Shown one piece after another: positions 1 through 64,000 of a stretch of 64,000 nt of DNA. The translations under genes and the position numbers were made by a program. Every line of letters starts with the position of its first letter. Position 1 is the stretch's first letter. Source of the stretch: Deinococcales bacterium (GTDB lineage: Bacteria > Deinococcota > Deinococci > Deinococcales > JAAFIG01); NCBI GenBank assembly GCA_013298595.1, contig JAAFIG010000002.1, positions 204,781 through 268,780 of the forward strand. Direction: 5' to 3'. Under the pieces are notes generated by a model. It worked only from the letters and a program-made list of their open reading frames with translations, was not told the DNA's origin and made no database searches.

Positions 1-2801
1 AGAATCACATCTCGAGCCAAGACAAATTCTGCTTGTTCAAAATAGACGAACCCCAAGGCAAAACAAAATTCGGCTGCCATACGTGGCAATGCCGTCACTC
101 GGCAAGCATAAGTTTGCAAACATAAAGTGCTGGCATGTTCGGTTTCGCCACGCTCGAGCAAAGCATAAGCGAGGTACACGGCTGCCATACCAGTAAAAGC
201 AGGGTTATCATCTATGGCTTGTTTCATCGAAAAAGCTTCGCGGGTATTCTGGATGGCGCTATCAAGTTGCCCAAGATTGGTTTGGCAAAACCCCAAATTC
301 TCGAGACGGTAGGCTCTAAAATCGTTCGGACAAATACTGATGGAACTGGCTAAAATATCGTCCCAGTTTTGAGCAGCTTCGTGCCAGTACCCCCACGCTT
401 GACGGGTACTGGCGATGGTTGCCAGTACCGAAGTGTAAGTGTCTAAACTCAGTACTTTTGCTTCGGGTAGCAAGGCTTCAAATTCAGTAAAAAACGCAGC
501 ATGATCTTTTCGAGGGCGTTGCTCGATACCAATCCAGAGTAATTTTAATTCAAACAATGCTCGTTGATCGCCTGTGGTTTTGAACAGCTCTTGGGCTTGT
601 AATTGCAAGGCTCGAGCCTGATCTGGTTTTTGCCAACCAAGCGTATCGGCTAAAAACATCAGCCCATGTGCCTCGAGATTTACATCGGGAATGGCTCTGG
701 CGAGGGCAATGGTTTCGTTGGCGAGGGTTGAGTTGGCTTCAAACATATTGAGTGTTACATGGAGTTGTGCGGTATTGCCGAATAATTCGGCAAGTTCAAC
801 TGAGCCTAAACCCAAACCATGAGGTACACCATCAGGGCGCTCAACCAAAATACGCCGAGCTGTCTCGAGGTGGGTTAAAGCATCACGCCACGCATAATTC
901 AAACTGGCAGCATCGGCAGCTTCAACCGAAAAACGTACTGCTTCAAGCCAAGCCCGTGCACCAATCGCATGGGTTGCCCGTTGCGCTGCACTACCATGAA
1001 CTCGAGTCAGTGCCAATGATTGCAAAGCCTGTAAACGTGGCGCACTGAGGCGTTGCAAAGCAGTTTCTCGCAATTTATCATGCGAAAAAGTGTATTTGGT
1101 GGCTTGTAAATCCGTGGCAGGTAACTCGAGCAACACCCGAGCACGCAAACATTCTTCGAGCGCCAGTAACAATTCGTTTTCGGGGATTTGAGCCACTCGA
1201 GCCGCATCTGAAAAAACAAAACCTTGTCCGAGTACCGCGCCAACCTCGAGCAAAATCCGAGCGGTATGGCTGAGCCGAGCAAAGCGAGCTTCGATCACAG
1301 TGCGAACCCCAGGAGCGGTTTGTGGCTGATCTGCAAAATGCACTTTCCAACCATCGCGCTCGGCTAAAAGCACACCATTCTCGGCAAGGCTGCGCAGTGT
1401 TTCTGCAATATACAGTGGTTGCCCACTGGTTTCGGAAAACAACCAATCCAGCAGTGCGGCTGGTGGCACACCCATATCCTCGAGTAAACGCAGGGTTTCG
1501 TCTTTAGAAAAAGTGCCAAGCGCCAAAGGTTCAACAGTGACATCTCGAGCCAGATTATTTAACCAGTTTTCGATTTGCTCCAGCGCTTCGCTACGAACTG
1601 TCGAAACCAATAAAATTGGGGTGCGATCAATTGCGGCGCGTCGCAAAACAAACAACAGCATCTCGAGCGAAGCTGCATCTGCCCATTGTGCATCATCCAG
1701 AAACCAAATCAGATGCCCAAGTTTTTGCGATAATTTAATGACCGCCTCAAACACTCTCGAGCGACCCAATGCCTCATCGGACACAGGGGCTGGTAAATTT
1801 GGTACCTCGAGTAATTCTGGCAGTAAACGCGCTAATTCAGCTAACCAAACAGGGGAGAGTAACCCCTCGAGATTTGGCACCCGACGCAACGCATCAGTAA
1901 TGCACTGATACGCCAAAGCACCACCTTCAAAAGCCCGAGCCGACAAAATTGTAGCCCCACGAGCACTCGCCCAAGCCAGAAATTCCTGAGCCAAACGAGT
2001 TTTGCCAATACCCGGTTCGCCCGATAAGACCATCACTCGAGGCAAAAGCTGCGCGGTACTATGAAATGCCGCCACCAAACGCTGAAACTCCGAAACCCGC
2101 CCAACCAACCGAGACTCGAGCAACAAACTCGGTAAACTTGGCACCCGCCCAGATTTTGCACTCGGCTCGAGCTGTAACGAATCGGCTAGTGCCAGCATTT
2201 CAGGGGTTGGTTGCAAGCCCAAATCTGTGGCAAGTTTTGTTTTAAATCCCGTAAAAACCTGCAAAGCCCGAGTGCGCTGACCATCAGCTGCCAACCACTG
2301 CACAAAACGCAAATGCGCCACTTCAGACAACGGCTCGAGCCGACACCACTGTTCAAGAATACCCTCAGAAGGCACAGCCACCTCAAGCAAATGCAACGCT
2401 GCCACGCGAAGCTGCTCACGGGTGATCTCGAGCCACTCCTCGGCTTCGGGCGCATCGGGCAAGTGAATCGCATCAAGAAAATCTGCTCGGTACTGCAAAG
2501 CCGCCTCGAGCGAACCCTGCAACACTCCAAGCGCATCACAAACAAAATCAGACAACCAAACACTCGAGCGATCCGATTGCACATGCGCCCCAAAGCTATA
2601 CCGCAAACTCGAAAGAGCATTGCGTAAAGAATTCTTCGCATCAGGTGAATCCGCCCACAACAACACCGCCAAACGCTCCCGAGACACCCGACCCTCGAGC
2701 GCCAACACTGCCAACAACACCAATGCTTTACGGGTCTTAGCACGCACCTCAAGACCATCCAAGATCAGCACAGGATTACCAAGTAAAACCAACTCGAGCA
2801 T
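1..2801 (-). CDS. BTAD/AAA ATPase/TPR transcriptional regulator, C-terminus off the window
   Basis: One frame stays open from an ATG at 2801 to the left edge, giving at least 933 residues. The N-terminus has a winged-helix plus bacterial transcriptional activator (BTAD) layout over about 240 residues. A P-loop GEPGIGKTR follows at about 261-269, then a Walker B-like WFLDDAQWAD, then helical TPR-like sequence to the edge. By family this is a STAND-type signal-responsive activator; the ligand is unknown. The start is supported by TATAAT six bases upstream and by protein homology beginning at residue 1. The gene is rich in CTCGAG. Another large BTAD regulator lies at 52462, but that one has an NB-ARC type ATPase. 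The missing C-terminus prevents a closer subfamily call. Confidence 0.85.
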   Translation of the reverse strand, partial: MLELVLLGNPVLILDGLEVRAKTRKALVLLAVLALEGRVSRERLAVLLWADSPDAKNSLRNALSSLRYSFGAHVQSDRSSVWLSDFVCDALGVLQGSLEAALQYRADFLDAIHLPDAPEAEEWLEITREQLRVAALHLLEVAVPSEGILEQWCRLEPLSEVAHLRFVQWLAADGQRTRALQVFTGFKTKLATDLGLQPTPEMLALADSLQLEPSAKSGRVPSLPSLLLESRLVGRVSEFQRLVAAFHSTAQLLPRVMVLSGEPGIGKTRLAQEFLAWASARGATILSARAFEGGALAYQCITDALRRVPNLEGLLSPVWLAELARLLPELLEVPNLPAPVSDEALGRSRVFEAVIKLSQKLGHLIWFLDDAQWADAASLEMLLFVLRRAAIDRTPILLVSTVRSEALEQIENWLNNLARDVTVEPLALGTFSKDETLRLLEDMGVPPAALLDWLFSETSGQPLYIAETLRSLAENGVLLAERDGWKVHFADQPQTAPGVRTVIEARFARLSHTARILLEVGAVLGQGFVFSDAARVAQIPENELLLALEECLRARVLLELPATDLQATKYTFSHDKLRETALQRLSAPRLQALQSLALTRVHGSAAQRATHAIGARAWLEAVRFSVEAADAASLNYAWRDALTHLETARRILVERPDGVPHGLGLGSVELAELFGNTAQLHVTLNMFEANSTLANETIALARAIPDVNLEAHGLMFLADTLGWQKPDQARALQLQAQELFKTTGDQRALFELKLLWIGIEQRPRKDHAAFFTEFEALLPEAKVLSLDTYTSVLATIASTRQAWGYWHEAAQNWDDILASSISICPNDFRAYRLENLGFCQTNLGQLDSAIQNTREAFSMKQAIDDNPAFTGMAAVYLAYALLERGETEHASTLCLQTYACRVTALPRMAAEFCFALGFVYFEQAEFVLARDVI

Positions 2802-2807
2802 AAACAA

Positions 2808-2836
2808 ATTATACGCACAGCAAACCACCCTAACAA
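2808..2836 (-). promoter_or_regulatory. Sigma70-type promoter giving a leaderless mRNA for the BTAD regulator
   Basis: Reading the minus strand, TTGTTA (2836-2831), a 17-nt spacer and a perfect TATAAT (2813-2808) are followed by six bases (ttgttt) and then the ATG at 2801. Transcription would begin at or next to the start codon, and no Shine-Dalgarno sequence is present. Confidence 0.7.
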
Positions 2837-2888
2837 TTTAACGATCCATTTAACGATTCGTTATCGCACCCCAAGTACAGTCCTAACA

Positions 2889-2934
2889 GCGATGACTCGG
2901 CGAACCTCCGTGAACCGAGTCGTTGCAAAGGAGT
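2889..2934 (+). promoter_or_regulatory. Leader hairpin with a loop complementary to the ribosome binding site
   Basis: GCGATGACTCGG (2889-2900) pairs with CCGAGTCGTTGC (2915-2926) as a 12-bp stem with G-U wobble. The 14-nt loop contains CCTCC, which can pair with the GGAG of the Shine-Dalgarno sequence at 2930-2933, just downstream. A translational switch or pseudoknot for the next small gene is an inference. Confidence 0.5.
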
Positions 2935-2940
2935 GAACCC

Positions 2941-3135
2941 ATGACAGACCTAAACATGCTCCGCGCCATCCAACAAAGCCAAGCCATCATCCAAGAAGAC
3001 CTAGGCAACCCTCGAGCACCCCACCAACACGCCAGCGAAGTCATCGGCACTACGCCAAAACGCCTAAGCATCGCAACCACTCGAGATGGCAAAATAAAAC
3101 CACAACAAACCCCTCGAGTCCAAACCCAGCATTAA
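2941..3135 (+). CDS. Small hypothetical protein (64 aa)
   Basis: I do not recognise this protein. The ATG at 2941 is chosen because AAAGGAGTG lies at a good distance upstream, a rare strong Shine-Dalgarno sequence in this window. The product is hydrophilic, starts MTDLNMLRAIQQSQ and is rich in Gln, Arg, Thr and Pro in its second half, with no signal peptide or membrane segment. It is transcribed divergently from the BTAD regulator and preceded by a strong leader hairpin. The gene contains CTCGAG like real genes of this genome. It could instead be a chance ORF; the translation signal is the main support. Confidence 0.5.
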   Translation: MTDLNMLRAIQQSQAIIQEDLGNPRAPHQHASEVIGTTPKRLSIATTRDGKIKPQQTPRVQTQH

Positions 3136-3141
3136 ACCAAA

Positions 3142-3210
3142 CCACAAACCGTAGAGGCGAGGCTTGCCTCGCTACAATCCACAAACCGTAGCAGCGGGGT
3201 TTGCCTCGCC
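3142..3210. repeat. Two tandem copies of a GTAG...GCGAGG/CCTCGC palindromic repeat
   Basis: ccacaaaccgtag occurs at 3142-3154 and again at 3179-3191. The first copy is followed by the near-palindrome GGCGAGGCTTGCCTCGC, the second by a degenerate form, GCGGGGTTTGCCTCGCC. A third copy lies at 11313-11340, and a similar stretch is inside a gene at 4389-4407. It behaves like a REP-type intergenic hairpin. Confidence 0.65.
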
Positions 3211-3284
3211 CAACCAGCCAAAGCTAAAGCAAACTGGGAACAGTGAATAAATGAAAAACGTAACCTCCTATATGTTCCCCCCGC

Positions 3285-3332
3285 CTTCTTGCTCACAAGA
3301 CAGCACCTTTCGGGCTGTTCGCGCTTCGGCGA
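3285..3332. repeat. Dispersed ~48-bp repeat, copy 1 of 2
   Basis: This stretch reads TTGCTCACAAGACAGCACC and continues CGGGCTGTTCGCGCTTCGGCG. It matches 16606-16653 with scattered substitutions. Both copies are intergenic. An internal ACAG/CTGT inverted repeat could form a hairpin. Confidence 0.65.
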
Positions 3333-3355
3333 CCCCCTCGAAAAAGAGGGGGTTT
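3332..3355. terminator. C-rich/G-rich hairpin followed by TTT
   Basis: ACCCCCTC, a short A-rich loop and GAGGGGGTTT form a strong stem. It could end transcription of the small gene at 2941 or simply be part of the repeat cluster. The T-tract is short. Confidence 0.4.
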
Positions 3356-3610
3356 AGGGCTGTGCTTTTGAATTTTTTGGTTTTTCCGAATGTGCAGAAT
3401 GTGGATAACAGAGCCAACCGAATAACCCTCTCCCGCGCTTTTTGGCGGGATGAGGGTGACGAGCCTAAGGCGAGTCGGGTGAGGGCTTGCGACGTGATTG
3501 CCACGTATCATTGCTCGAGTTCTTGTTTGTTGCTCGAGTGATGGTGTGCTCGAGAAATTAGTGAATTTCCGTTTGCCTTTCGCCTTCTACTTTTCCCTCT
3601 TTGGAGTTTC

Positions 3611-5418: not shown

Positions 5419-5419
5419 A

Positions 5420-21303: not shown

Positions 21304-21971
21304 GAATCCTGCTGACACACCAGTTCGGGCGACTCGAGGGTTTAGAGGTGGCTTTGGAGGCTCGAGGGCATTTGCTGCAACACATCCCACTGATTCGTAC
21401 CGAGGTGCTTTGGGAAACTGATCTTGAACCCTTAAAGCACAGTGATTGCTGGGTTTTTACCAGTCGTTCAGCAATAGAAGCCTCTGAGCAACGCGGGGTT
21501 TTTACGTTACCAAGACCAAAAATCGCGGTGATTGGTCGGGCTTCGGCAAGAGTACTGGAAGGCTTGGGGATTCAAGCAACAATAATCGGTGTGGAAGAAA
21601 CCGCTTTGGGTTTAGCCAAAGCCTTACTCGAGTTACCCCAAACCACTGTTTTTGCTTGGGTGCGAGGCACATTGAGTTTGCCTGATTTACAACACGAACT
21701 TGTGAAGCAGCACCGCCGAGTACACAGTGTGGTGATGTATCACACTGTCAGTTTGGAATTACCTGCCATGCAAACAGATGTGCTGGTGGTAAGCAGCCCC
21801 AGCGCCCTGCAAGCAATTTCGGACCAGTGTGCCAGCCAAGTGCAACTGATTGCGCTTGGCTCGAGTACAGCCGCTGCTATTGAAGCTCGAGGGTGGACTG
21901 CAATCGTGGCACTCGAGCCGACTGTTGCTGGCATTGTTGCAGCTTTAGAAAAAGTGAAAGGATTTTTATGA
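21300..21971 (+). CDS. hemD: Uroporphyrinogen-III synthase
   Basis: This 223-residue protein is divergent, as HemD always is. It begins MRILLTHQFGRLEGL and shows CWVFTSRSAIEA, AVIGRASARVLEGLG, and VVSSPSALQAI with a late ALGSSTAAAIEARG segment. It cyclises hydroxymethylbilane to uroporphyrinogen III. The start at 21300 overlaps the hemC stop as ATGA; frames extending further upstream run through hemC and are not used. Position between hemC and hemB supports the call strongly. Confidence 0.9.
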   Translation: MRILLTHQFGRLEGLEVALEARGHLLQHIPLIRTEVLWETDLEPLKHSDCWVFTSRSAIEASEQRGVFTLPRPKIAVIGRASARVLEGLGIQATIIGVEETALGLAKALLELPQTTVFAWVRGTLSLPDLQHELVKQHRRVHSVVMYHTVSLELPAMQTDVLVVSSPSALQAISDQCASQVQLIALGSSTAAAIEARGWTAIVALEPTVAGIVAALEKVKGFL

Positions 21972-22963
21972 CAAATATCATTCAGCGTCCGCGTCGGTTG
22001 CGAAGCAGTTTTGTGCTGCGTGATGCCATTGCCGAAACTTGGTTGCGTCCTACCGATTTTATTGCACCATTTTTTGTTGTGGCGGGTGAAAATATTACTC
22101 AACCCATTCAAGCCTTACCGAATATCAATCGTTTCAGTGTGGATATGTGGTTAGGGCAACTCGAACGGGCTTTGAATTTAGGGGTGAAAACCGCGCTGAT
22201 TTTTGGGGTACTCGAGGCGCACGAAAAAGATGCAATGGCAACCTCGGCAACAAACCCAAACAGCCTAATGCCAACAGCGATTCGGGCTGCTCGAGCGGCG
22301 TTTGGTCAGGATATTACCCTAATTTCTGATGTCTGCTTATGTACCCATACCGATCATGGGCATTGTGGTTTATTACAACAAACTGCTCGAGGTACGATCA
22401 TAGATAATGACTCGAGTTTGACGCAATTGGCAGCCATGGCTTTAACCCACGCACAAGCAGGTGTGGATTTGGTTGCTCCTTCGGACATGATGGATGGACG
22501 AATTGGTTTTATTCGTCAGGCATTAGACTCGCATGGTTTTGCTGAGGTTGGTATTTTATCGTATGCCGTAAAATTCTCGAGTGCTTTTTATGGTCCTTTT
22601 CGAGAAGCGGCTGGCAGCAGCCCAAGTTTTTCGGATCGTGCGACGTATCAAATGGATTTTCGTAATGCCCGAGAGGCACTGCGTGAAATTGCTTTAGACA
22701 CCAGCGAAGGGGCAGATTTGTTGATGGTCAAACCTGCTTTGGCGTACTTAGATGTGATCGCTCGAGTGCGAAGTGCCACGGTTTTGCCCGTGGTGGCGTA
22801 CAACGTGTCTGGCGAGTACGCCATGCTCAAAGCGGCAGCGGCAATTGGCGCGTTAGACGAAGCCAGAGCTGTTCGTGAAACTTTAACGGGTATCAAACGG
22901 GCGGGTGCGGATTTAATTGTTTCTTATCATGCACTAGAAGCACTCGAGAAAGGTTGGTTATGA
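21968..22963 (+). CDS. hemB: Delta-aminolevulinic acid dehydratase (porphobilinogen synthase)
   Basis: This 331-residue enzyme condenses two ALA molecules. It has RPRRLR, DVCLCTHTDHGHCGLL (metal-site cysteines; the third, more C-terminal Cys of the zinc type is not seen in the same loop), the active-site lysine in SYAVKFSSAFYGPFREAAGS and the second lysine in LLMVKPALAYLDVI. The ATG at 21968 overlaps the hemD stop as ATGA. CTCGAG is frequent (7 copies in about 1 kb). Confidence 0.95.
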   Translation: MTNIIQRPRRLRSSFVLRDAIAETWLRPTDFIAPFFVVAGENITQPIQALPNINRFSVDMWLGQLERALNLGVKTALIFGVLEAHEKDAMATSATNPNSLMPTAIRAARAAFGQDITLISDVCLCTHTDHGHCGLLQQTARGTIIDNDSSLTQLAAMALTHAQAGVDLVAPSDMMDGRIGFIRQALDSHGFAEVGILSYAVKFSSAFYGPFREAAGSSPSFSDRATYQMDFRNAREALREIALDTSEGADLLMVKPALAYLDVIARVRSATVLPVVAYNVSGEYAMLKAAAAIGALDEARAVRETLTGIKRAGADLIVSYHALEALEKGWL

Positions 22964-23982
22964 GTTTATTTTTACGTGCCTTACATGGCGAAAATACCAG
23001 TACCGCTCCGATTTGGGTGATGCGCCAAGCAGGTCGGTATTTACCTGAGTACATGGCAATCAAAGCCAAATCCAGTTTTCTCGAGATGGTGCAAACCCCT
23101 GAGTTAGCGGCTGAAATTACGTTGCAACCGATCAATCGGTTTGCTTTGGATGCCGCGATTATTTTTTCGGACATCATGACCCCATTACCTGCAATGGGTA
23201 TAAACGTTGACTTTGCGCCAGGTCCAGTGGTGACTCCTGTTCGTAGTGTGCAAGCCATTACTGTTTTACGCATTCCACAAGCGGCTGAAATAGCACCATT
23301 TATGCAAAAAGCAATTGAGTTGGTCAGTGCTGAACTGATTCATAAAAACATTCCGTTGATTGGTTTTGCAGGCGCACCTTTAACCTTGGCTGCGTACTTG
23401 GTGCAAGGCAGTGGGAGCAAGGATTTCGAGGATTTTCGGGCTTGGTTGCGTTTAGAACCAAAATTGGCTCATTTACTGCTCGAGAAATTAACCGAAGTAA
23501 CAATTAGCTATCTGCAAATGCAAGTGGCAGCGGGTGCAAAAGCCATTCAATTGTTTGATTCTTGGGCAGGGTTGCATTCGGCAAGGATGTACCACGAATT
23601 TGCTTTCCCGTATAACCAACGTATTTTATCGGCATTACAGGGTTTGGTGCCACGAATTTACTTAGCGGTTGGCGCGAGTCATTTGTATTCGCAGATGAGT
23701 ACCTTGGCTTGCGAGGCGGTCAGTGTGGATTGGCGTACACCCCTGCAACAAGTGCGGTTGGCATTGCCACATAAAACGCTGCAAGGTAACCTCGACCCAG
23801 CCGCTTTACTTGGCACACCAAAAACAATGGCACTCGAGGCGCAACAAGTCTTAGAAGCTGGTTTGGGAGGAGCGCATATTTTCAATTTAGGTCATGGTAT
23901 TTTTCGCCAAACCAATCCCGATATGCTCAGCCGACTGATAGACCAAGTTCATGAATTTCAGCGCTTAGGAGATACGCCATGA
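22960..23982 (+). CDS. hemE: Uroporphyrinogen decarboxylase
   Basis: This 340-residue enzyme removes four carboxylates to give coproporphyrinogen III. It shows the signature [16 protein letters not shown] near the N-terminus, [38 protein letters not shown] and [16 protein letters not shown]. The start at 22960 overlaps the hemB stop as ATGA; an earlier in-frame ATG at 22954 lies inside hemB. Confidence 0.96.
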
Positions 23983-42626: not shown

Positions 42627-42707
42627 ACGCTACCTCGAGAAAAAGTCATAGATTTAGTTTACACAATTTGAGCAAAGGCAAGCTTGAAGGCAATAACTGT
42701 AGGGTGC

Positions 42708-42747
42708 GAGCGACCCAGCCCGATAGGTGCATCTTTAGGGTCAAGAT
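42708..42747. repeat. Dispersed repeat B, copy 2
   Basis: GAGCGACCCAGCCCG and AGGTGCATCTTTAGGGTCAAG match the segment nested in element A at 12368-12405. It sits in the 193-bp gap between the thiolase and DUF456 genes, outside any element A here. Confidence 0.6.
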
Positions 42748-46266: not shown

Positions 46267-47136
46267 GTGTTCAATCTTTTCCGACGCGCTTGGACTCCTG
46301 CGGTCACACATACTGACTTCGAGCGGGCATTGAAGCAACTTGGTGTGGAAAGAACCAAACCACTGATTGTACACTCGAGTTTATCGAGTCTGGGTAATTT
46401 AGTTGGTGGTGCAGACACTGCGATTCAGGTATTAAAAAGTTTCTCGAGCACCCTTGTGATGCCAGCTTTTAGTTATTACACCTTGGTTTGGCCCGAAGGT
46501 CAACGCAACGATGATTGGCCCGCAAGCCTGACCGAAAATGGACCACCGTTCCGCTCAGATAGCCCCGTTTCTAAGGATATTGGACGCATACCACAATCGT
46601 TGCTCGAGTTATCAGGAACGCTGCGAAGTCAGCATCCAACCTTATCCTTTGCAGCTCATGGAAGCGAAGCTACTCAGATCCTTGGTGTGCAAACCCTCGA
46701 GCACCCATATGCCCCAATTGGTGTGCTCGAGCATCTCGATGCCAGTGTGTTACTAATTGGTGTGGATCATCGTAGCAATACCACAGTGCATTATGGCGAG
46801 TACCTCTCGGGTCGTCCGATGCTCGAGCGCTGGGCAAACACACAGCAAGGGTATGTAAAAACTTTCTACCCCAATTGTAGTGCTGCGTTTAACGCAATTG
46901 AATCGAGTTTAAGTACTTTACGCACCTTAGATTTAGGCAAAGCCACCTTGCAAGTAGCCAAGGTTCGGGATGTGATTGCTGCCACCAAACGCTTACTAAC
47001 AAATCATTCTGAGGCATTGTTGTGTAGTTACCCGAATTGCCGTTGTCAAAATGTGAGAAACAAAATTCGCCGAGATGGAATGCGTCCACGCGAAGACATC
47101 CGACTCGAGGAATGGCTGGGTATTGTTCCCGCCTGA
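46267..47136 (+). CDS. Aminoglycoside N(3)-acetyltransferase family protein
   Basis: This ~289-residue protein shows the AAC(3)/YokD pattern: PLIVHSSLSSLGNLVGGADTAI, VMPAFSYYTLVWPEG, HPTLSFAAHG, HPYAPIGVLEHL, LLIGVDHRSNTTVHYGEY. Members acetylate aminoglycosides, but many chromosomal homologs have unknown substrates, so resistance should not be assumed. The start is uncertain: GTG 46267 gives a normal N-terminus; TTG 46240 would add nine residues. The stop lies one base from the end of convergent trpC. Confidence 0.83.
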   Translation: MFNLFRRAWTPAVTHTDFERALKQLGVERTKPLIVHSSLSSLGNLVGGADTAIQVLKSFSSTLVMPAFSYYTLVWPEGQRNDDWPASLTENGPPFRSDSPVSKDIGRIPQSLLELSGTLRSQHPTLSFAAHGSEATQILGVQTLEHPYAPIGVLEHLDASVLLIGVDHRSNTTVHYGEYLSGRPMLERWANTQQGYVKTFYPNCSAAFNAIESSLSTLRTLDLGKATLQVAKVRDVIAATKRLLTNHSEALLCSYPNCRCQNVRNKIRRDGMRPREDIRLEEWLGIVPA

Positions 47137-47137
47137 T

Positions 47138-47920
47138 CTACTTGCCTAGTAATGCCCGTACACTCGAGGCAATATCGGTTGCACCAACTAAACTCGAGCC
47201 GATAAGAACAGCATCAAATACACCCTCGAGCGAAATCAGCTCGGCGCGGTTTGAGTACCCAGACAGGGCAATCAGTACACCTTCAAAGTCGTACTCTCGA
47301 GCTAGCAACCCAATACGTGGCGCTGTACCAAGATTGATATCCAGTGTAATCAGGTCGCGGTTATTGACTCCAATAATTTTTGCACCAGCCTCGAGTGCAA
47401 TGTCCAGTTCAGCTTCGGTATGAACTTCGACCAGTGCATCCAAACCAACATAATGACAAGCCTCGAGATACGTTTTGGTCTGCTTACCCAAAACATTGAC
47501 CAGTAACAACGCAGCAGCAGCTCCTGCTTGAGCGCCTTGCTCGAGCATGGCAGGGTGCAAAATAAAATCTTTGCACAGGGTTGGTAAGGCAATTTGGCTC
47601 GAGACTTCGGTTAAATCCTCAAAAGACCCGAGAAAACTCTTGGGTTCAGTTAAAACCGAAATGGCACTCGCCCCACCAGCCATGTATGCTTTGGCTGCCT
47701 CGAGTGCCGATAAACCTGTGTTTAATTCCCCACGAGGCGAAGCACGTTTGACTTCAGCAATTAAACGCAGTCCACCCGCTTTTAAGGCAGTAGCAAAACG
47801 TTTTTCATGAACTCGAGGGGTTAAAGAGGTTGGGGCATTGACAAACGCTTCGGCGCGGTCACGGCAAATACTGCCAAGTGTTCCCTCAAGCTTCGAGACA
47901 TCGGGTAAGGGTAAATCCAT
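47138..47920 (-). CDS. trpC: Indole-3-glycerol phosphate synthase
   Basis: This 260-residue TIM-barrel enzyme of tryptophan synthesis has LIAEVKRASPRGEL (active-site Lys), ISVLTEPKSFLGSFEDL, LCKDFIL, DALVEVHTEAELDIALE, IGVNNRDLITLDINLGTA, and ALSGYSNRAEL with VLIGSSLVG. TAGACT lies six bases before the ATG. No other trp gene is in the window. Confidence 0.95.
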   Translation of the reverse strand: MDLPLPDVSKLEGTLGSICRDRAEAFVNAPTSLTPRVHEKRFATALKAGGLRLIAEVKRASPRGELNTGLSALEAAKAYMAGGASAISVLTEPKSFLGSFEDLTEVSSQIALPTLCKDFILHPAMLEQGAQAGAAAALLLVNVLGKQTKTYLEACHYVGLDALVEVHTEAELDIALEAGAKIIGVNNRDLITLDINLGTAPRIGLLAREYDFEGVLIALSGYSNRAELISLEGVFDAVLIGSSLVGATDIASSVRALLGK

Positions 47921-47959
47921 GTTGGAAGTCTAACGTACTTTGAGTAAAGGCGTTGATGT

Positions 47960-50191
47960 TTATGTGGTTGGCTCGAGCAAAGCAGATTCTTCTTGTGCGA
48001 TTTCCTCGAGTAGAGGTTCAAAGCCTTTGAGGATTTCATGGTCTGGTGGTTGGTTTAGATTTTTGAGAAGATTTAAATATTCTTTAATTGTAATTAGAGT
48101 ATTTTGAGAATAGCTTGTTGGGAGAGATCGATAAAATGGTTTAATTGTACTTAGACTGTCACAATAAGCAATACGGGATTTTTCAAAATCTCCCATATAA
48201 TAATATGTAATGCCCAAATTATGAAATGCTATTGAAAGCCCTGATGAGTACAAATTTGGGAATATTGTTTCTAGGTTTTGATACGTCTTGATAGCCTCGT
48301 TGCAGGATTGTAAAGCGTCTGCAAAAATACCTAATCGATTTAAGTATGAACTAGCGTTTGTCAATAGATTGGCAAGGTTTACTAAGTAAGTGTTAGGTTG
48401 TGTAGTAGAAAGCTTCTGATAAATTTGGGTAGCTTCTTTATTGACTTCTAATGCTTTGTGAAAATTAAGGTGTTTTCCATATTGATCACTCAGTGTAGTT
48501 AATGATGTTGCAAGATCAGGGAGATGTGTCTCGGGGGCTAAAGCCACTAATTCTCGACGAATTTTTACGCTTTCTAAACTCACATTTAAGGCTTTTTCGA
48601 CTTGTCCTAATTTAGTTAGTTGAACCCCCAAGTTATTAAGTGCTGCGGCAAGTTCTTGTAAATAAATTTCTGGATGTAACTCAGAAAGTTGGCGATAAAT
48701 TTTAACTGCTTTAGCGCCTACTTTAAGTGCCTCCTGAGACGCACCTAAATCTGATAAATGTAATCCAAGGTTTAGTAATGAATTTGCAAGAAAAGGTACG
48801 TAAACTGAATAATTTGAGTTCGTGAGTTCTTGAATTATAGAGTTACCTTCTAAACTAAATTTTACAGCTTGATTAAATTGACCTAATTTTTTGAACTGAA
48901 TGCCTAGATTTATCAGAGAAGATGCTAAACGGGGTAGATAGCTCGTTGGCTGCACAGTAGCAAGTTTTCTATAATACTCAACCGTTTCTGTACTAATTTC
49001 AAGTGCTTTTTGAAACTGCCCTAATCTCCCATACCGAATTCCCAGACAATTAAGTGCATCTGCCAGTTCAGAAAGATAGTTATTTGGATGTTTATTAGCA
49101 AGTTTTTGATAAATTTCAACCGCTTCTTGGGTTGATTTTAATGCCTGCTCAAGTTGACCTAAATTACTAAATTTATTCCCTAGATTGTTGAGTGACATCG
49201 CAAGGATTGACAAATAAGTATTTGGTTGTGTTTTTGTGAGTTGATGACAGATTCCCACAGCTATCTGAGTGGTTTTTAAGGCTTGCTCATGTTGACCTAA
49301 GTCACTAAATTGATTGCCTAGATTATTGAGTGACATTGCTAACTCTGGTAAGTAAGCATTTGGTTGTGTTTTTACGAGTTGTTGATAGATTTCTATTCCT
49401 TCTTGTGTAGTGTTTAATGCTTGCTGGAATTTCTTAAAATGGCTTAGTAAAATTCCATATAAATTCAGTGTTTCAGCTAAAAACTCCTGATTCTTAACGA
49501 CTCGAGCATAGTCAAGAATAGGTTCTACTAAGGCTAAGGCTTCTTCATTTTGCCCAATTCCATGTAATTTTTCCGTTAATCGTAACTCGAGCCGTTTAAT
49601 ATAATCTTCATTTGGGTTAGCACTTTTCTTTTCCTGCTCGAGTAAATCCCGAATTTCTTGCACATCTTCATCTCGAGCTTGAATATCTCGTAACCACAAT
49701 CCCGAATCGCCTAGGGGTAAGCTTGGCTCGAGTTGCCCTCGAAAATCCAGCACAGCTCGTTTCACTGCAAAAGTATCAGGAGCTTTTAAGCTAATTTCGG
49801 TTAAAGCACTTTCAGTGACAAAAATGATTAAACCATGGGGTAATGCCACAATTTCTTCACGATGAAAATTTAAGTACCCACAAAAATGCTTAAAACTTTC
49901 GTCTTGGCTACTTAAATCTACTCGCATCAGCACAAGGCTACGCTCGAGTCCTATGCCGCGTAGCGTGGGTAAAAAATTAGGGTCGGAAATACTGATATGA
50001 CCCGATGGGACAAGCACAATTTTAGGGTTTAAGGTGGGTTCAGCCTCGAGTGTACCAGCAATTAAATCCCAGTCTTTGCCACTGGCAAACATGGCAAAAG
50101 CCACGTAACCCACTTTGGCTAAGCGGTGCAATGTCAGTAAGTGCCAGAATTCCTCGGCTTGGCTGTTACTAAAATGCTCGAGTGGGTTCAT
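47960..50191 (-). CDS. Large TPR-repeat protein with N-terminal domain, partner of an ATPase
   Basis: This 743-residue protein starts at ATG 50191, overlapping the ATPase stop as ATGA. Residues 1-180 form a mixed alpha/beta domain (FWHLLTLHRLAKVGYVAFAM, PKIVLVPSGHISISDPNFL, LPHGLIIFVTESAL) that I do not recognise. From about 200 it is TPR/kinesin-light-chain-like, with repeats of about 46 residues such as LAMSLNNLGNQFSDLGQHEQ. The repeat-coding DNA (48011-49499) contains no CTCGAG at all, while the N-terminal part has many. The repeats may have expanded recently or been acquired. The function is unknown; coupling suggests a sensor/effector pair with the ATPase. Confidence 0.82.
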   Translation of the reverse strand: MNPLEHFSNSQAEEFWHLLTLHRLAKVGYVAFAMFASGKDWDLIAGTLEAEPTLNPKIVLVPSGHISISDPNFLPTLRGIGLERSLVLMRVDLSSQDESFKHFCGYLNFHREEIVALPHGLIIFVTESALTEISLKAPDTFAVKRAVLDFRGQLEPSLPLGDSGLWLRDIQARDEDVQEIRDLLEQEKKSANPNEDYIKRLELRLTEKLHGIGQNEEALALVEPILDYARVVKNQEFLAETLNLYGILLSHFKKFQQALNTTQEGIEIYQQLVKTQPNAYLPELAMSLNNLGNQFSDLGQHEQALKTTQIAVGICHQLTKTQPNTYLSILAMSLNNLGNKFSNLGQLEQALKSTQEAVEIYQKLANKHPNNYLSELADALNCLGIRYGRLGQFQKALEISTETVEYYRKLATVQPTSYLPRLASSLINLGIQFKKLGQFNQAVKFSLEGNSIIQELTNSNYSVYVPFLANSLLNLGLHLSDLGASQEALKVGAKAVKIYRQLSELHPEIYLQELAAALNNLGVQLTKLGQVEKALNVSLESVKIRRELVALAPETHLPDLATSLTTLSDQYGKHLNFHKALEVNKEATQIYQKLSTTQPNTYLVNLANLLTNASSYLNRLGIFADALQSCNEAIKTYQNLETIFPNLYSSGLSIAFHNLGITYYYMGDFEKSRIAYCDSLSTIKPFYRSLPTSYSQNTLITIKEYLNLLKNLNQPPDHEILKGFEPLLEEIAQEESALLEPTT

Positions 50192-51423
50192 AGGAGTTCT
50201 TGGACTATGGGGTGAACGTCGTACCACGGGTTTGGGTCGTCGTTGCGGTACTCGAGAACACTAAGGTTATAGAGTAAATCGCGGTCTAGGTCGCTATTCT
50301 CAATTTTTTTGTCACCCTGAATGATTCTCAAACGGTCTTTTTGTTCAGGAGTTAAGAATCTCGAGTATGTGGCTCGAAATTTTCCAATGGCGATATTGAC
50401 ATCAGCGATGTTTATTTTGGTGCGGTTTTTCAGGGTTGCTTGAATGCAGGCATCGGCTGTGAGTACGAGTAAATGCCGTACTAAACCCCCAGATTTTTCG
50501 GCTAGTAATTCGAGTGTCCCTACTTCAAATAAGCCATCTGAAACGCGTTTTGTCAGGATTTCTTTGAGGCTGTTTAAACCACTTGGGTAAGGTTGATTGA
50601 CTCGAGTATGGGTTTTGAAGTTAGGTAAGTCAAAGCTATTAAAGTACCCTTCGATTTGCATAAATTCGTTGCTGTGACGCAATGCAATTGGGAAAGTGTA
50701 GATCAGGTGTAGTGGTAAGTCTGATAATGATTTGCCATGATCCAAAAAGAGTTTGCTGCTCTTGTCGTGGTCTAGTTTGTCGAGGTCTTCGACCATGATG
50801 ACAATTTTTTTACTGGTTTCACGTTCAATAAATCTAGCAAGGTCATCTATGGCATTGACCAGTTGTCGCAGCACGCCACTGAGTTTTTTGCGAACCACGG
50901 TGCGGCTGGTACTTTCTTTGCCTAATCGTGCAAAAGCGGTCAGTAAATTCAGGATGCTGGGCTTAATTTCTACACCCATTTCAAATTTTTCTTTGTTTTC
51001 GTTTTCTTTGTAAATTTCATCAAAGAAATCTCGGATTGGTTTTAGCAGCGTTTCGGGTAATTTATTTTGTATTTCTGGTGCAGCACTTTCGATTAAACCC
51101 ATACCTATGGCAAAGATAATGTCAGTGTATTGCAAGTCTCGAGTATCAAGTTTTTCTGTAACCGAGAATAGCACCACAAAAAAGTCCTGCTCGAGTTCGC
51201 TCTTTAAGCGAGTGAGTTCTGTACCTTTGCCTGAGCCGCGATGACCTGTAAATAAAAATTTGGCATGAGTATGAGGACTCAAGCGTAAGAAACGCAGTTG
51301 TTGTCCCATCTCGAGCCGTTGACTGTGGTTGCGTTCGACAAAGAAGGCGCTTTCTCCAATGCTGAGTGGGTGCAAGGAGTCGAGGTTAAGAAACGCAGCC
51401 TCGAGATTATGAGCTTGGTTCAT
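50188..51423 (-). CDS. P-loop ATPase (STAND/KAP-like) of a two-gene module
   Basis: This 411-residue protein has Walker A GHRGSGKGT at 60-68, Walker B in KIVIMVEDLDKLD, a LIYTFPIALR sensor-like strand and a helical C-terminal part ending GGLVRHLLVLTADACIQA and a 'P-W-Y-D-V-H-P-I-V-Q' tail. The tail fits the winged-helix end of archaeal-type or KAP-like ATPases. It lacks a membrane segment. The start has TAACCT six bases upstream and TTGGCA at the -35. With the coupled TPR protein it forms a candidate signalling or defence module; no effector domain is recognisable. Confidence 0.75.
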   Translation of the reverse strand: MNQAHNLEAAFLNLDSLHPLSIGESAFFVERNHSQRLEMGQQLRFLRLSPHTHAKFLFTGHRGSGKGTELTRLKSELEQDFFVVLFSVTEKLDTRDLQYTDIIFAIGMGLIESAAPEIQNKLPETLLKPIRDFFDEIYKENENKEKFEMGVEIKPSILNLLTAFARLGKESTSRTVVRKKLSGVLRQLVNAIDDLARFIERETSKKIVIMVEDLDKLDHDKSSKLFLDHGKSLSDLPLHLIYTFPIALRHSNEFMQIEGYFNSFDLPNFKTHTRVNQPYPSGLNSLKEILTKRVSDGLFEVGTLELLAEKSGGLVRHLLVLTADACIQATLKNRTKINIADVNIAIGKFRATYSRFLTPEQKDRLRIIQGDKKIENSDLDRDLLYNLSVLEYRNDDPNPWYDVHPIVQELL

Positions 51424-58529: not shown

Positions 58530-58538
58530 CGAGTTGCT

Positions 58539-59003: not shown

Positions 59004-59082
59004 AAACTCCTCTTTCTCTCGAATTCGTCTCGAGTTTCAAGTACTGTACCCGTTGGTACTGATGACAAGATGACAACCTTAT

Positions 59083-59487: not shown

Positions 59488-59532
59488 TGGTGTTATCGTA
59501 CCAAAAGGCGAAGGGTGAAAAGCTAGAAGCTC

Positions 59533-59949
59533 TTAGCTTTTAGCTTCTCCATGCTCCACCAATTCAATCAGTGTGCCTGCACCCCATTTAGGATGTAAAA
59601 AGACAACTCGAGTACCTGCTCGTCCAGGTCTGGGTTCTGCGTTAAGAAAAATTGCTCCTGTTTGCTCGAGTTTCTCAATTTCGGCTTCAAGATTATGCAC
59701 ACGCAAGGCAATGTGGTGCATTCCAGCGCCGCGTTTCTCGAGAAAAACAGCAATTGGGCTGCTGGGGTCGGTTGGCATCAGTAATTCAATCAGATTATCG
59801 CCTGCTTGAAAGGCTCGAACCATGACTTTTTGACTTGGGATTGCTTCGTCAGGCAAAGCCGTTAAACCAATTGCCAGATAAGGTGCGCTGCCAATCTCGA
59901 GGTCTGGTGTGGCAATGCCAATATGATCAATTGGGTAGGGGAGAGTCAT
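59533..59949 (-). CDS. mce: Methylmalonyl-CoA epimerase
   Basis: This 138-residue vicinal-oxygen-chelate protein has DHIGIATPDLE, VRAFQAGDNLIELLMPT, GAGMHHIALRVHNLEAEIEKL and RVVFLHPKWGAGTLIELVEH. It interconverts (S)- and (R)-methylmalonyl-CoA for the B12-dependent mutase, which fits the B12 uptake genes elsewhere in the window. ATG 59949 has TATACT six bases upstream. Other VOC enzymes are possible but the motif set and length fit this one. Confidence 0.88.
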   Translation of the reverse strand: MTLPYPIDHIGIATPDLEIGSAPYLAIGLTALPDEAIPSQKVMVRAFQAGDNLIELLMPTDPSSPIAVFLEKRGAGMHHIALRVHNLEAEIEKLEQTGAIFLNAEPRPGRAGTRVVFLHPKWGAGTLIELVEHGEAKS

Positions 59950-59968
59950 AAGCAAAGTATAAAAGGTT

Positions 59969-60004
59969 AAAGCAGCAAGGGGTGAACATTTCCCTTGCTG
60001 CTTT
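59969..60004 (-). terminator. Hairpin terminator of the YbjN-domain gene
   Basis: AAAGCAGCAAGGG and CCCTTGCTGCTTT form a 13-bp stem around 10 nt. On the minus strand it is followed by TTTAACCTTTTA, ending the YbjN transcript just before the epimerase -10 box. Confidence 0.75.
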
Positions 60005-60021
60005 GATTTGTAAACTTATTT

Positions 60022-60489
60022 TTAAGCTTGAACTTGAGCTTGTTCTTGCTCTGAAGGTGGGGTGACACCTTCAAGGGTTGCGTAATCATCTTGGAAGTGC
60101 ACCAATGCACCACCGAAAATGGTTTCAAATAATTCTTCTGGGAATGGCATAAACGATGGGTAAAAACCAATGTACTCGAGGAACATATTGCCGTCCTCGT
60201 CCATGCTACGAGTAAAGGCGCGTTCGCGGTTTCGGACATTCATCATTTCGACCACGGCTGCTCGACGACCACGGTATTGATTATGGGTCACGCAGGTAAT
60301 CTCGAGTCGGCTTGTACCACCTTGGGCATCGTTGAGCGACAGAATAACACCTGCATCGCCCATTTCAAATTTCCAGTTCATACGAATAAATCGGTTGCCA
60401 TTTTGGGTTTCGATTTCGTGGTTGACTTCGCGTTTTTTCAGATACGCTGCGAGGGTTTCGAGGGTCAATAATGGGGTGATGTCTGCCAT
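60022..60489 (-). CDS. YbjN domain-containing protein
   Basis: This 155-residue protein has the YbjN/type III secretion chaperone-like fold: LETLAAYLKKREVNHEIE, VILSLNDAQGG, CVTHNQYRGRRAAVVEMMN, FLEYIGFYPSFMPFPEELFETIFG. The C-terminus is Gln/Glu-rich. Function is unknown; homologs are common in Actinobacteria, cyanobacteria and Deinococcota. It is monocistronic with a clear terminator. Confidence 0.8.
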   Translation of the reverse strand: MADITPLLTLETLAAYLKKREVNHEIETQNGNRFIRMNWKFEMGDAGVILSLNDAQGGTSRLEITCVTHNQYRGRRAAVVEMMNVRNRERAFTRSMDEDGNMFLEYIGFYPSFMPFPEELFETIFGGALVHFQDDYATLEGVTPPSEQEQAQVQA

Positions 60490-60568
60490 AGCCCGAGGAG
60501 TTTACCAGTTCTTGTCAAAAAGGCAAAGGGCGAAAGGCAAAAATCCCTTCGCACCTACCTTTTGTTTT

Positions 60569-60706
60569 AAATACCTCCTTGAAATGTTTTAGCGTTTTTT
60601 GCTAAAACATTTCCGACTAACAGGAATAAGGACAAGGTATCTACCGCTGTAATGGCAGAATTGCCGCTTTTTGAAAATTCTAAAATGAAAGCGGTAGATA
60701 CTTAAC
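60569..60706. repeat. Structured repeat element A, copy 2 (simple form)
   Basis: It contains TGTTTTAGCG/TTTTTT/GCTAAAACA (60585-60607) and the outer hairpin GTATCTACCGCT / AGCGGTAGATAC (60638-60701), enclosing GAAAATTCTAAAATG. Its end covers the stop codon of the DUF2089 gene (60702-60704). It lacks the nested element B seen in the copy at 12253-12423. Confidence 0.75.
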
Positions 60707-61058
60707 TCTTTTTAATGCGTTGCAGCGCTTCTTGGAAACTCAGTTCGCCTCGTTCGAGTTGCTGTAAAATATCGTTGCTGTTTGGGTGTTCGGGTTCGCC
60801 TAGAGCTTCAACAATGGCATCAAGTCTGGCTCTGGCAGTGTTGTAACTGACTCCGAGTACTTCAGCAAGGCGCTGCACATTGCCTCGGAAACGCAACAGC
60901 AAACCTGCAAACTCGAGTTGCTCAAAGGTTAGTTTACCAATCCAACCAAAAGCAAATTCGCCTTCGAGTACCAATCCGCGTTGTTTATTCTCGAGCCGAG
61001 TGACGGTTAGTTCTTCGCCTGTTATTGGGTCTTTGGTGATTAACGGGTAGCGGTTCAT
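60702..61058 (-). CDS. DUF2089 family protein
   Basis: This 118-residue protein has the DUF2089 pattern: CP-like start YPLITKDPITGEELTVTRLE, GEFAFGWIGKLTFEQLEFAGLLLRFRGNVQRLAEVLGVSYNTARARLDAIVEALG (in pieces). It looks like a helix-turn-helix-type DNA-binding unit. It lacks the N-terminal zinc cysteines present in some relatives. Its ATG overlaps the stop of the upstream repeat protein gene as ATGA. It is probably a regulator co-expressed with that protein. Confidence 0.85.
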   Translation of the reverse strand: MNRYPLITKDPITGEELTVTRLENKQRGLVLEGEFAFGWIGKLTFEQLEFAGLLLRFRGNVQRLAEVLGVSYNTARARLDAIVEALGEPEHPNSNDILQQLERGELSFQEALQRIKKS

Positions 61059-62578
61059 AATTCAAGTGTACTGAGTTTTGCTCTGATTTGCTCGAGTATG
61101 TTTTTGAGTACAGTTTTTTCGTGGTCGTCAGTTGCAATACCAAGGTCAGCGCTGAGCGAAGCTAAGGCTTCCTCGAGGGCAAGTTTTTGCAGTTCAGGTG
61201 GGTCATTTTCGTTGATATACTGACTGATATCTGCTTCAGGGTGTTTTTGGATGATCTCGAGATTTTCTGCAAGTGGTTGTATGGTTTCAACTTTTTTGGT
61301 TTTAACTGTACTCTTTTGATTGGTTGATACTTCAATGGGCACTTCAGCGATGGCTTGTTCGATGGCTTCTTGCACAACTTTATCTACATCAATAATTACC
61401 TGATTGACATTAGTACTCGAACCGTACTCAGCTTCAAAATCACTCTGTAATTCCTCGAGTTCTTCTTGTAATTCCTCGAGTTCGTCTTTTAAGGCTTCGC
61501 TGGCTTCTTCGGCTTCGTCGAGTTCATCTTCAGCATCGGTGATTTCATCATCAAGTTCTTCAATAGCTTCTTCAAGGGTTTCGCGTTTATCCGCTTTGGT
61601 GGTTTGCTCGAGTTGAATTTTTAAGCGATCACGTTTTGCTTCGATTTTGGCAATGGCGCGTTGATGTGTAAGAATTTCGTTTTCTTGTTCGGTAATTTCT
61701 TCGGTTTTTTCACGAATTTCTGTTTGTTTTTCTGCCATTTCTTTTTGCGCTTCGCGGCGCTCACGGTCACGCTCGCGTTGTTCTCGAGCAGCTTCGCGTT
61801 GTTCGCGTTCGGCATCACGGTTGCGACGTTTGCTGGTGATGGTTCGGCTGGTGCTGGTCAAATTCTCGAGGTCTAGGATGCCGCTTGCCAGCATTTGCCG
61901 AATATAGTCTGGACTAACCCCCATGTTTTGTAAGTGAACAATCCGTCCAAATGGCATTTCAATGCCGAATTCAGCAGCTAGTTCATACATTTCTCGGATA
62001 AATTGTGGTTTGACCCCGTGCACACCAAAAGAAAGCACTTCATTGAATGTTAGCTTATGGTAATTGTTTTCAGCCGCTAGTTCATAGAGTTCTCGAACAA
62101 AATTAGCGCGAATACCATGAATGCCAAAAGATAAGATTTCTTTGAAACTCAGATTGACTTGTTGATGCTCAGCGGCAAGCTCGAACATTTCACGAACAAA
62201 ATGAGGTTTGATACCATGTGTACCCAATGCCAGAACTTCTTGGAAAGTGAGTTGCTCGAGTCCTGCTTGGCGTAATTCAGCAACATAATCTGGTTTAATG
62301 CCCATTTGCCCCATTTGTACAATTTGCTCAAACGTAAATGCCCCCGAGTTATTGCCAAGAGGTCGTCCACTTTTTGCAGTTGGTACTCGAGGCATTGGTG
62401 GGACGGGTGCAACAGGGGGTATAGGGGGCACTGGAGGCATTGGAAAAGCAAAGTTTTCAGGTGATTCAGGGGCATCAGAGGTTGTTAGTACTTCTAATGC
62501 CTCGAGTAATTCTTGGGCTTGCTCGGCAGTGATTGCCCCTTTTTGGACCAACTCGAGGATACGGGTTTCTTGTTTCAT
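61055..62578 (-). CDS. Tandem-repeat, coiled-coil protein with SHOCT-like N-terminus
   Basis: This 507-residue protein starts MKQETRILELVQKGAITAEQAQELLEALE (SHOCT-like), then a Pro-rich segment of VPP repeats, then five helical repeats of about 35 residues around GIKPxFVREMYELAAE (residues ~90-245), then a long charged coiled coil (~260-400), then an acidic tail. ATG 62578 is set by AAGGAGAA. It is coupled to the DUF2089 gene. The GVxPxYIxxL repeat occurs in proteins of unknown function in several bacteria. I infer a scaffold or sensor partnered with the DUF2089 regulator. Confidence 0.8.
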   Translation of the reverse strand: MKQETRILELVQKGAITAEQAQELLEALEVLTTSDAPESPENFAFPMPPVPPIPPVAPVPPMPRVPTAKSGRPLGNNSGAFTFEQIVQMGQMGIKPDYVAELRQAGLEQLTFQEVLALGTHGIKPHFVREMFELAAEHQQVNLSFKEILSFGIHGIRANFVRELYELAAENNYHKLTFNEVLSFGVHGVKPQFIREMYELAAEFGIEMPFGRIVHLQNMGVSPDYIRQMLASGILDLENLTSTSRTITSKRRNRDAEREQREAAREQRERDRERREAQKEMAEKQTEIREKTEEITEQENEILTHQRAIAKIEAKRDRLKIQLEQTTKADKRETLEEAIEELDDEITDAEDELDEAEEASEALKDELEELQEELEELQSDFEAEYGSSTNVNQVIIDVDKVVQEAIEQAIAEVPIEVSTNQKSTVKTKKVETIQPLAENLEIIQKHPEADISQYINENDPPELQKLALEEALASLSADLGIATDDHEKTVLKNILEQIRAKLSTLEL

Positions 62579-62871
62579 GATGTTCTCCTTAAAGATTTTA
62601 TAAAACTTATGCAATTATTTTACATATATTTTGGCATTTGTCAAATAGTTATGAAATCTTATAAAATCACCTTGAAGAACCTGAGGGTAATTTACTGCCT
62701 CGAGTTTTTAAAAAATATTGTTCTAAAAAGAACAAATTCTCAAATTCTCACTAAAAAACTAAATCAATGAAACTAATAGACTAAGCTCGAGGTATGAATT
62801 CTTGCAAATCTATTGATAATTTTTGTGCAAATTAAAAATCTAAATCATCAGTTGATCTCAAGATTCCCCTA

Positions 62872-63771
62872 ATGATAAGCAAAATGGTAATCTTCTCCTC
62901 AATGTCAAGCAAAACAGGTGTTTTTACTGCATTACCCCAACGAATTGTCTGGTCACTGATTGCTTTTGCAATCGTGGTCGCATTGGTTTGGGGAGGTTGG
63001 GGGTCACTGACTGCACTTCTTGGTTTTGCTGTCTTTATGGGCTTATTTGAATTTCGTTCAATGGCACGCAAAGCCAACCTTGCCATCGGAGGACGCAGCA
63101 TCTATGTATTTGCTGGACTGATGCTACTTGCCAGTCAACCGTGGTTACGCGAAGGCATTTGGTTTGTCCCAGCCAATATTCCATGGCGCGAAATTGTCAT
63201 GTGGCTCTACGTCATGTGGGTCATGATTGTCGAAGTGATACGCCCCAGCGAACGCCCACTCGAGCGCATCATGACCAGCGTTTTTGGCATGTTGTACATA
63301 CCATTCTTACTATCGTTTGCATTGCTATTACGCTACTACCCAGATGGTGTACTCGGCTTTTGGTACGTCATGATTGCCTGCGTAGGCGCATATGCCAGCG
63401 ACACAGGTGCTTATATTTTCGGTGGTTTATTTGGCAAACGCAAACTCGCCCCAGAAATCAGCCCCAGTAAAACTCTCGAGGGAGCAATTGGTGGTTTGGC
63501 TTTTAGTGCTTTAATGGTTTTCATTTTACAAGAAGCCATTCGCAATTTTATTCCCGAAGTTCGCGTGTGGGAAATATGGCTTTTTGCGATTCTTGTGTCA
63601 TCCGCTGCACAACTCGGAGACCTTGCTGAAAGTGTGATCAAACGCAGCTTAGGTGCAAAGGACAGCGGTACGTTTTTGCCAGGACACGGAGGGCTACTCG
63701 ACCGCATAGATAGCCTATTATTTGCCTTACCTGTTGCCTATTATTTTCTGAGTGTTGCGGTTTTTAGCTAA
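62872..63771 (+). CDS. cdsA: Phosphatidate cytidylyltransferase
   Basis: This ~299-residue membrane enzyme makes CDP-diacylglycerol from phosphatidate and CTP. It has about seven helices and the CdsA signature near the C-terminus: LGDLAESVIKRSLGAKDSGTFLPGHGGLLDRIDSLL (in pieces), with SDTGAYIFGGLFGKRKLAPEISPSKTLEGAIGG. The start is unclear: ATG 62872, 62884 or 62902 are all in frame; 62902 (MSSKTGVFTALP) gives a typical N-terminus. The GNAT gene follows eight bases after the stop. Confidence 0.93.
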   Translation: MISKMVIFSSMSSKTGVFTALPQRIVWSLIAFAIVVALVWGGWGSLTALLGFAVFMGLFEFRSMARKANLAIGGRSIYVFAGLMLLASQPWLREGIWFVPANIPWREIVMWLYVMWVMIVEVIRPSERPLERIMTSVFGMLYIPFLLSFALLLRYYPDGVLGFWYVMIACVGAYASDTGAYIFGGLFGKRKLAPEISPSKTLEGAIGGLAFSALMVFILQEAIRNFIPEVRVWEIWLFAILVSSAAQLGDLAESVIKRSLGAKDSGTFLPGHGGLLDRIDSLLFALPVAYYFLSVAVFS

Positions 63772-63779
63772 AGGAAAAC

Positions 63780-64000
63780 ATGACCATATCCATCCGTAAC
63801 CTCAAACCTCGAGACGCAGCCGATTTTAAGGAATTACGAATCTACGCCATGCAGGAATCACCACGTGCATTTGGCTCGAGCGTCCAAGACGAAGAAAGCC
63901 GTGCAATTGAGCAAATTGAAAGTATGTTTTTCAACCCCGTTTCATTCGGGCTTGGCGTATTTGATAACGAAAAACTGATTGGTTTAGCCCGCTGCGAATG
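63780..64000 (+). CDS. GNAT family N-acetyltransferase, C-terminus off the window
   Basis: The frame from ATG 63780 (AAAGGA upstream) reads MTISIRNLKPRDAADFKELR and continues ESPRAFGSS to the right edge without a stop (73 residues). The pattern (IRNLKPRDAADF, AFGSS, FDNEKLIGLARCE) is that of GNAT acetyltransferases. It starts eight bases after cdsA and is probably co-transcribed. Confidence 0.8.
   Translation, partial: MTISIRNLKPRDAADFKELRIYAMQESPRAFGSSVQDEESRAIEQIESMFFNPVSFGLGVFDNEKLIGLARCE

Follow-up and report, generated by a model that had tools for sequence, protein, structure and literature searches.

CTCGAG is a highly iterated palindrome of Deinococcota genomes and possibly marks the sites of a chromosome-wide protein system

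The hexamer CTCGAG is strongly over-represented in the genome of a Deinococcales bacterium (GenBank assembly GCA_013298595.1), both in a stretch of 64,000 nucleotides of contig JAAFIG010000002.1 (positions 204,781 to 268,780 of the forward strand, the whole of which is called the window here) and throughout the assembly. The excess is real, extreme and a property of the lineage. By its defining statistics, CTCGAG belongs to the class of highly iterated palindromes (HIPs), standing far above composition and low-order Markov expectations genome-wide, in coding and non-coding DNA and in all reading frames. We tentatively read it as marking the sites of a chromosome-wide protein system, which would be ancestral to an order of the Deinococcota, lost in a Thermus-like genus, free of a conserved methyltransferase, responsible for shaping two thirds of the eligible codon pairs and intolerant of the everted site GAGCTC. 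The parallel with HIP1 (GCGATCGC) of cyanobacteria had been drawn in an earlier reading of the window from its letters alone (the sequence-only reading), and it holds. The wide taxonomic spread, the near-saturation of synonymous opportunities, the short-range exclusion within genes and the near-absence of GAGCTC go beyond that reading.

In the window, CTCGAG occurs 416 times, or once per 154 bp, against 12.7 occurrences predicted by base composition, and it ranks first among all 4096 hexamers. Markov models of order 1, 2 and 3 predict 6.5, 31.5 and 139 copies, respectively; the maximal-order model, which predicts 368, was dropped as a null because its 5-mers derive from CTCGAG itself. Across the whole genome (4,582,226 bp in 68 contigs) there are 27,159 copies, roughly one per 170 bases, compared to 15 of GAGCTC, and in a 464 kb sample of the genome CTCGAG stands at 29 times its composition expectation, with every other palindromic hexamer at or below 2.7 times. 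The excess over lower-order Markov models, on which the sequence-only reading had let its claim depend, is thus present genome-wide, and the recurrence that it described along the window is stronger than claimed. Its local counts, 23 in the first 2,800 positions and seven in hemB, were slightly low, as seen in the following list of the sites and their local extremes:

1-64000: CTCGAG sites, 416 in all, with 7-19 per 2 kb all along, in coding and non-coding DNA
1-2800: CTCGAG-dense stretch singled out by the sequence-only reading, 25 sites
21893-22963, plus strand: hemB-like open reading frame (ORF), 8 sites
22954-23982: ORF reading as hemE, next to the hemB-like ORF, 3 sites
46501-48000: kilobases richest in CTCGAG within the window, with 11-12 copies each
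48005-49506, minus strand: longest stretch free of CTCGAG, with 1,496 bp from one site start to the next (48005-49501), within a large ORF at 47960-50227

That codon or amino-acid usage, base composition or an assembly artefact generates this excess is already refuted. Leu-Glu is a common dipeptide, and CTC and GAG are frequent in high-GC relatives; however, when synonymous codons were shuffled in 413 kb of coding DNA, with proteins and codon usage kept, 184 CTCGAG resulted compared to the 2,268 observed, a 12-fold shortfall. All three reading frames are used (1274, 573 and 421 sites in the 464 kb sample), and 53 kb of non-coding DNA holds 339 copies against 8.3 expected, the density being 6.4 per kb there and 5.7 in coding DNA and flat across gene starts and ends. 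In addition, a Thermus-like genome falls below its own codon-use prediction (0.21 vs. 0.33), and the enrichment recurs across independently assembled genomes of several genera, as well as in records of named Meiothermus, which argues against an artefact. The statements that CTCGAG is read in all three frames and is not a codon or protein effect are therefore borne out. It had also been held that Leu CTC and Arg CGA codons lie largely inside the hexamer, which is right for CTC (52% of codons) and wrong for CGA (35%).

As for the opportunities that proteins leave open, Leu-Glu is written CTC GAG in 2,482 of 3,757 cases (66%) in 862 kb, compared to the 1.6% predicted by the usage of both codons elsewhere. 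The approximately 30-fold excess and the occupancy of two thirds of the protein-permitted places together mean that something in the cell reads or writes CTCGAG. If selection acts, its scaled strength per site would be about 4-5, in terms of log odds. Occupancy varies only weakly with the flanking bases, at ±3 bases, and an extended recognition motif was rejected. Conservation was followed between the genome of the window (G000) and a second genome of its family (G001) in 41 orthologue pairs, one near-identical pair being excluded. Their four-fold sites are 42% identical, yet of 104 CTCGAG copies at conserved Leu-Glu dipeptides, 91 are retained; among control dipeptides (Leu with a two-fold amino acid), the hexamer is unchanged in 43 of 238. 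There is, then, a strong restoring force at each permitted site.

Regarding its host, the genome belongs to an uncultured family (f1, including G000-G003) near Thermaceae and Trueperaceae; when named genomes were scanned with hemC, the best relatives, at about 57-63% identity, included Meiothermus, other Thermaceae and Trueperaceae. The labels Thermus-like (genus g7, 68% GC), Marinithermaceae-like (f4) and Truepera-like (G009) are putative assignments. Six genomes, from f1 and from genus g11 of family f2 (G012 and G016), with 45-60% GC, carry a steady 5.6-6.6 CTCGAG per kb and write 66-79% of Leu-Glu as CTCGAG, compared to 2-10% predicted by codon use elsewhere. Their other palindrome biases differ, GGCC being nearly absent from G000, G001 and G003 and normal in G012. 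The excess extends, in weaker form, to named Meiothermus records (58% of Leu-Glu vs. 13% expected), a Marinithermaceae-like genome (72% vs. 32%), the Truepera-like G009 (52% vs. 32%) and G101 of the same family as G009, with 48% GC (54% vs. 4%). Meanwhile, no excess is seen in the Thermus-like G007 (21% vs. 33%), and Leu-Glu is written as CTCGAG in 13% of cases in G004 (vs. 15.5%) and in 8% in 50 kb of a plasmid of Deinococcus radiodurans (vs. 15%). Among 111 genomes, median densities of CTCGAG per Mb are 6,156 for f1 and 825 for the Thermus-like genus. Judging from this distribution, the excess is probably ancestral to an order-level group of the Deinococcota, having become stronger in f1 and g11 and disappeared from some lineages.

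Within genes, neighbouring copies exclude one another at short range. With the nearest other CTCGAG at a distance of 30 to 500 bp, about 55-67% of potential genic sites are occupied, compared to 39% at 20-24 bp, 38% at 15-19 bp, 29% at 10-14 bp and 4% at 6-9 bp. Among pairs of potential sites 7-24 bp apart in 862 kb, 177 are doubly occupied against 368 by permutation (1,000 runs, minimum 314), and no such effect is seen for 59 control dipeptides in their commonest codon pairs (ratio 1.14). The exclusion below 20 bp recurs in G001, G003 and G012/16, with G002 consistent on few pairs. Beyond about 40 bp, no even or periodic spacing was found, gaps above 800 bp numbering 34 against 26 expected. 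With some reserve, the genic exclusion can be taken as a hint of steric competition. Alternatively, close pairs in genes could be avoided as stable mRNA or terminator-like hairpins, the enrichment itself having another cause, which appears rather unlikely. Two copies do provide a 6-bp GC-rich stem, and such pairs form terminator-like hairpins in non-coding DNA. However, non-palindromic inverted repeats in coding DNA stay level from 10 bp on, those with 4 or 5-6 G+C of six being depleted solely at 7-9 bp; since they are not depleted at 10-25 bp, a general avoidance of hairpins does not explain the exclusion. Some intergenic repeats, CCCCTCGAGccttcaatCTCGAGGGG and gggtCTCGAGtagggtgCTCGAGgaac among them, have two copies of CTCGAG as their basis and recur several times between 40 and 100 kb of contig C12 of G000 (L094, L095 and L096).

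The mirror site GAGCTC, composed of the same half-sites everted, is the most uniformly absent palindrome, with two copies against 388 expected in five sets of samples (G000-G003 and G012/16). Its core AGCT is not itself avoided in most of the CTCGAG-saturated genomes, and CTC and GAG at other spacings occur near or slightly under expectation, except for CTC-NN-GAG, with a mild 1.5-fold excess. The absence of GAGCTC may be due to a restriction system that these genomes have in common or to its poor tolerance by the reader of CTCGAG. It is near-absent in all CTCGAG-saturated genomes, although no methyltransferase common to them was found. In the window and the G000 sample, GGCC and CCGG are strongly depleted (0.02 and 0.08 of expectation, respectively), and most palindromic hexamers average less than half of expectation, a sign of heavy restriction pressure. 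In the comparison of GAGCTC with other palindromes, the latter average 0.33-0.48 of expectation.

A writer of the motif was sought by whole-genome family searches for the XhoI endonuclease (PF04555), methyltransferases of the C5 (PF00145), N4/N6 (PF01555), Eco57I (PF07669), N6_Mtase (PF02384) and D12 (PF02086) families and the Vsr repair endonuclease (PF03852), methyltransferases being grouped as orthologues at 40% identity and half coverage. The corresponding explanation, which is Elhai's model for HIP1, is that a methyltransferase acting on all or part of CTCGAG, together with mismatch or short-patch repair, converts near-cognate sequences, so that the motif spreads by molecular drive with no benefit per site. 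Cyanobacterial HIPs accompany matching methyltransferases (PMC4390886). Moreover, the independence of sites beyond about 30 bp and the equal enrichment of coding and non-coding DNA suit a position-blind process, and several transversion near-cognates are under composition expectation. XhoI-linked methyltransferases are present in the Truepera-like G009 and in G018, and some Meiothermus-like genomes have enzymes related to that of G009. However, although enzymes of all five methyltransferase families occur in the genomes, no orthologue group spans G000-G003 and G012, a result that applies to these families, to genomes estimated as 91-94% complete and to orthologous enzymes, as the same specificity can be found in unrelated ones. 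The C5 enzyme of G000, G001 and G012, the only one shared by these three, was rejected as the writer of CTCGAG, being probably a CCGG enzyme: CCGG is depleted there, and the match to its best plasmid relative (57.6% identity) also spans an annotated HpaII-family endonuclease. The PaeR7I-like methyltransferase of the G009/Meiothermus type was also discarded as a phylum-wide writer, as 8 of 111 genomes have it, none of them belonging to f1 or f2.

Moreover, no XhoI-family endonuclease was found in G000-G003, G008, G012 and G016, and Vsr is missing from G000-G003, G012 and G016 (it is found in G008, G010 and G026). In non-coding DNA, products of the decay of CTCGAG by transitions are elevated at each of the three positions, and in coding DNA C-to-T decay at CpG is not above other transitions; the lack of a CpG hotspot is evidence against 5-methylcytosine at CpG. 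The drive model also leaves the exclusion within 20 bp unexplained. Thus, the role in methylation suggested by the sequence-only reading found no backing, the methyltransferase link proposed for HIP1 is not supported here so far, and methylation-coupled drive ranks as an improbable second choice behind a bound protein. Two further loci concern these enzyme families: in G009, an XhoI-family endonuclease interrupted by stops adjoins an intact Eco57I-type methyltransferase (C1:1094188-1097598, L002), and in G003 a C5 DNA methyltransferase of 639 aa (C40:29451-31355, L015) carries an intein-like insert after its catalytic Cys (FVAGTLVLTIDGYRPIEALSVGDLVLTH).

The largest deficits of CTCGAG are seen in genes for surface-polysaccharide synthesis, a GmrSD-type nuclease, an E2/E1/JAB-type protein, a Cas protein, an integrase-like protein and a gas-vesicle protein, which fits a motif gained slowly by incoming DNA. 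The longest gap of the window agrees with this genome-wide trend of fewer sites in accessory genes; there, a TPR-like ORF adjoins one for a P-loop ATPase, both CTCGAG-poor (47960-51423, minus strand), possibly an acquired defence or signalling pair. The site-poor genes, which include defence functions, would also suit CTCGAG as a label of self for DNA uptake, or for a defence that spares label-rich DNA, with resident DNA being driven to acquire the label, in the manner of DNA uptake sequences or Chi. The low counts of other palindromes, suggesting strong restriction pressure, and the high transformability of Thermaceae point in the same direction. However, one label per fragment predicts a spacing over hundreds of bases, and the exclusion is confined to about 20 bp with independence beyond. 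In addition, uptake signals and Chi lack palindromic symmetry and occur more sparsely, and the Thermus-like genus, of a highly competent group, is without the motif. Self-marking is accordingly the least probable of these three explanations and unlikely in itself.

The preferred reading, favoured over the others at less than even odds, is that an abundant and probably dimeric chromosome protein recognises every site at the DNA level, weak selection keeping nearly every permitted site. Such a reader would be of a nucleoid, segregation or repair type and bound at CTCGAG; weak selection at each site would retain the hexamer wherever the proteins permit it, the exclusion within about 20 bp could be the footprint of the bound protein, and a motif ancestral to the order-level group would have been driven near saturation in f1. 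Several points weigh against this reading. No reader protein was found, and about 27,000 sites are costly to maintain by selection. In non-coding DNA tested by region there is no exclusion, close CTCGAG pairs lying there in terminator-like hairpins and repeat elements, and a hairpin-type cause specific to CTCGAG may act within genes. Since both G000 and G001 are about 80% occupied at conserved Leu-Glu, independent saturation alone predicts about 85 shared sites of 137, and the 91 shared are barely above this; retention alone cannot tell selection from a fast biased re-creation. Finally, the mobility of the site-poor genes is deduced from family names.

Compared to known systems, CTCGAG resembles HIP1 as a palindrome found genome-wide, far over expectation and lineage-wide with losses in some members. 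HIP1 itself is not the motif here, as its core CGATCG falls to 0.06 of expectation, with 5 copies in 464 kb. Apart from one that is more frequent, HIPs of cyanobacteria number about 500-2,500 per Mb, alternates being GGCGCC, rCCGGy and GCsGC, and a methyltransferase hypothesis has been advanced for them (Elhai 2015, PMC4390886). CTCGAG differs from most HIPs as a hexamer of another phylum, with about 5,900-6,500 copies per Mb in f1, and from HIP1 in synonymous sites near saturation, the lack of a common methyltransferase among those found, the genic exclusion within 20 bp and the absence of GAGCTC. We know of no denser iterated palindrome in bacteria. The restriction-modification systems XhoI and PaeR7I recognize the identical sequence, with XhoI-family genes in G009 (in a broken frame) and G018; however, restriction usually brings avoidance of the site, compared to a 29-fold excess here, and the four f1 genomes carry no PF04555 member. 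DNA uptake sequences and Chi are likewise short over-represented words kept by a function of resident DNA, but they are mostly longer, and we know of none that is CTCGAG. In line with the sequence-only reading, which knew of none, no description of CTCGAG as a palindrome of this class was found in the open-access literature, to which the search was confined, subscription papers being outside its scope; within the same limits, none was found of any iterated palindrome in Meiothermus, Truepera or Thermus.

HIP1 has gone unexplained for decades, and CTCGAG provides a second, stronger and phylogenetically separate case, which weakens the notion that a conserved methyltransferase always stands behind iterated palindromes. 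As its carriers include culturable Meiothermus and a related genus, the Thermus-like one, is a non-carrier, readers of palindromes become testable by comparative genetics. Codon analyses of these genomes also need to allow for CTCGAG.

Among viral contigs with three close CTCGAG copies, those in the matches listed were mostly of high GC, and no phage of these hosts was recognised. Besides the palindrome, the window holds a cobalamin riboswitch (RF00174; 12522-12660, minus strand) near FecCD-type iron or cobalamin transporter genes. A sequence of about 40 bp at about 42706-42746 (GGGTGCGAGCGACCC...) is a dispersed repeat: many contigs of G001, G003 and G012 carry copies that are 85-95% identical to it, but in the 862 kb of G000 sampled it has a single further copy. 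The repeat has no stable RNA fold (z 0.73).

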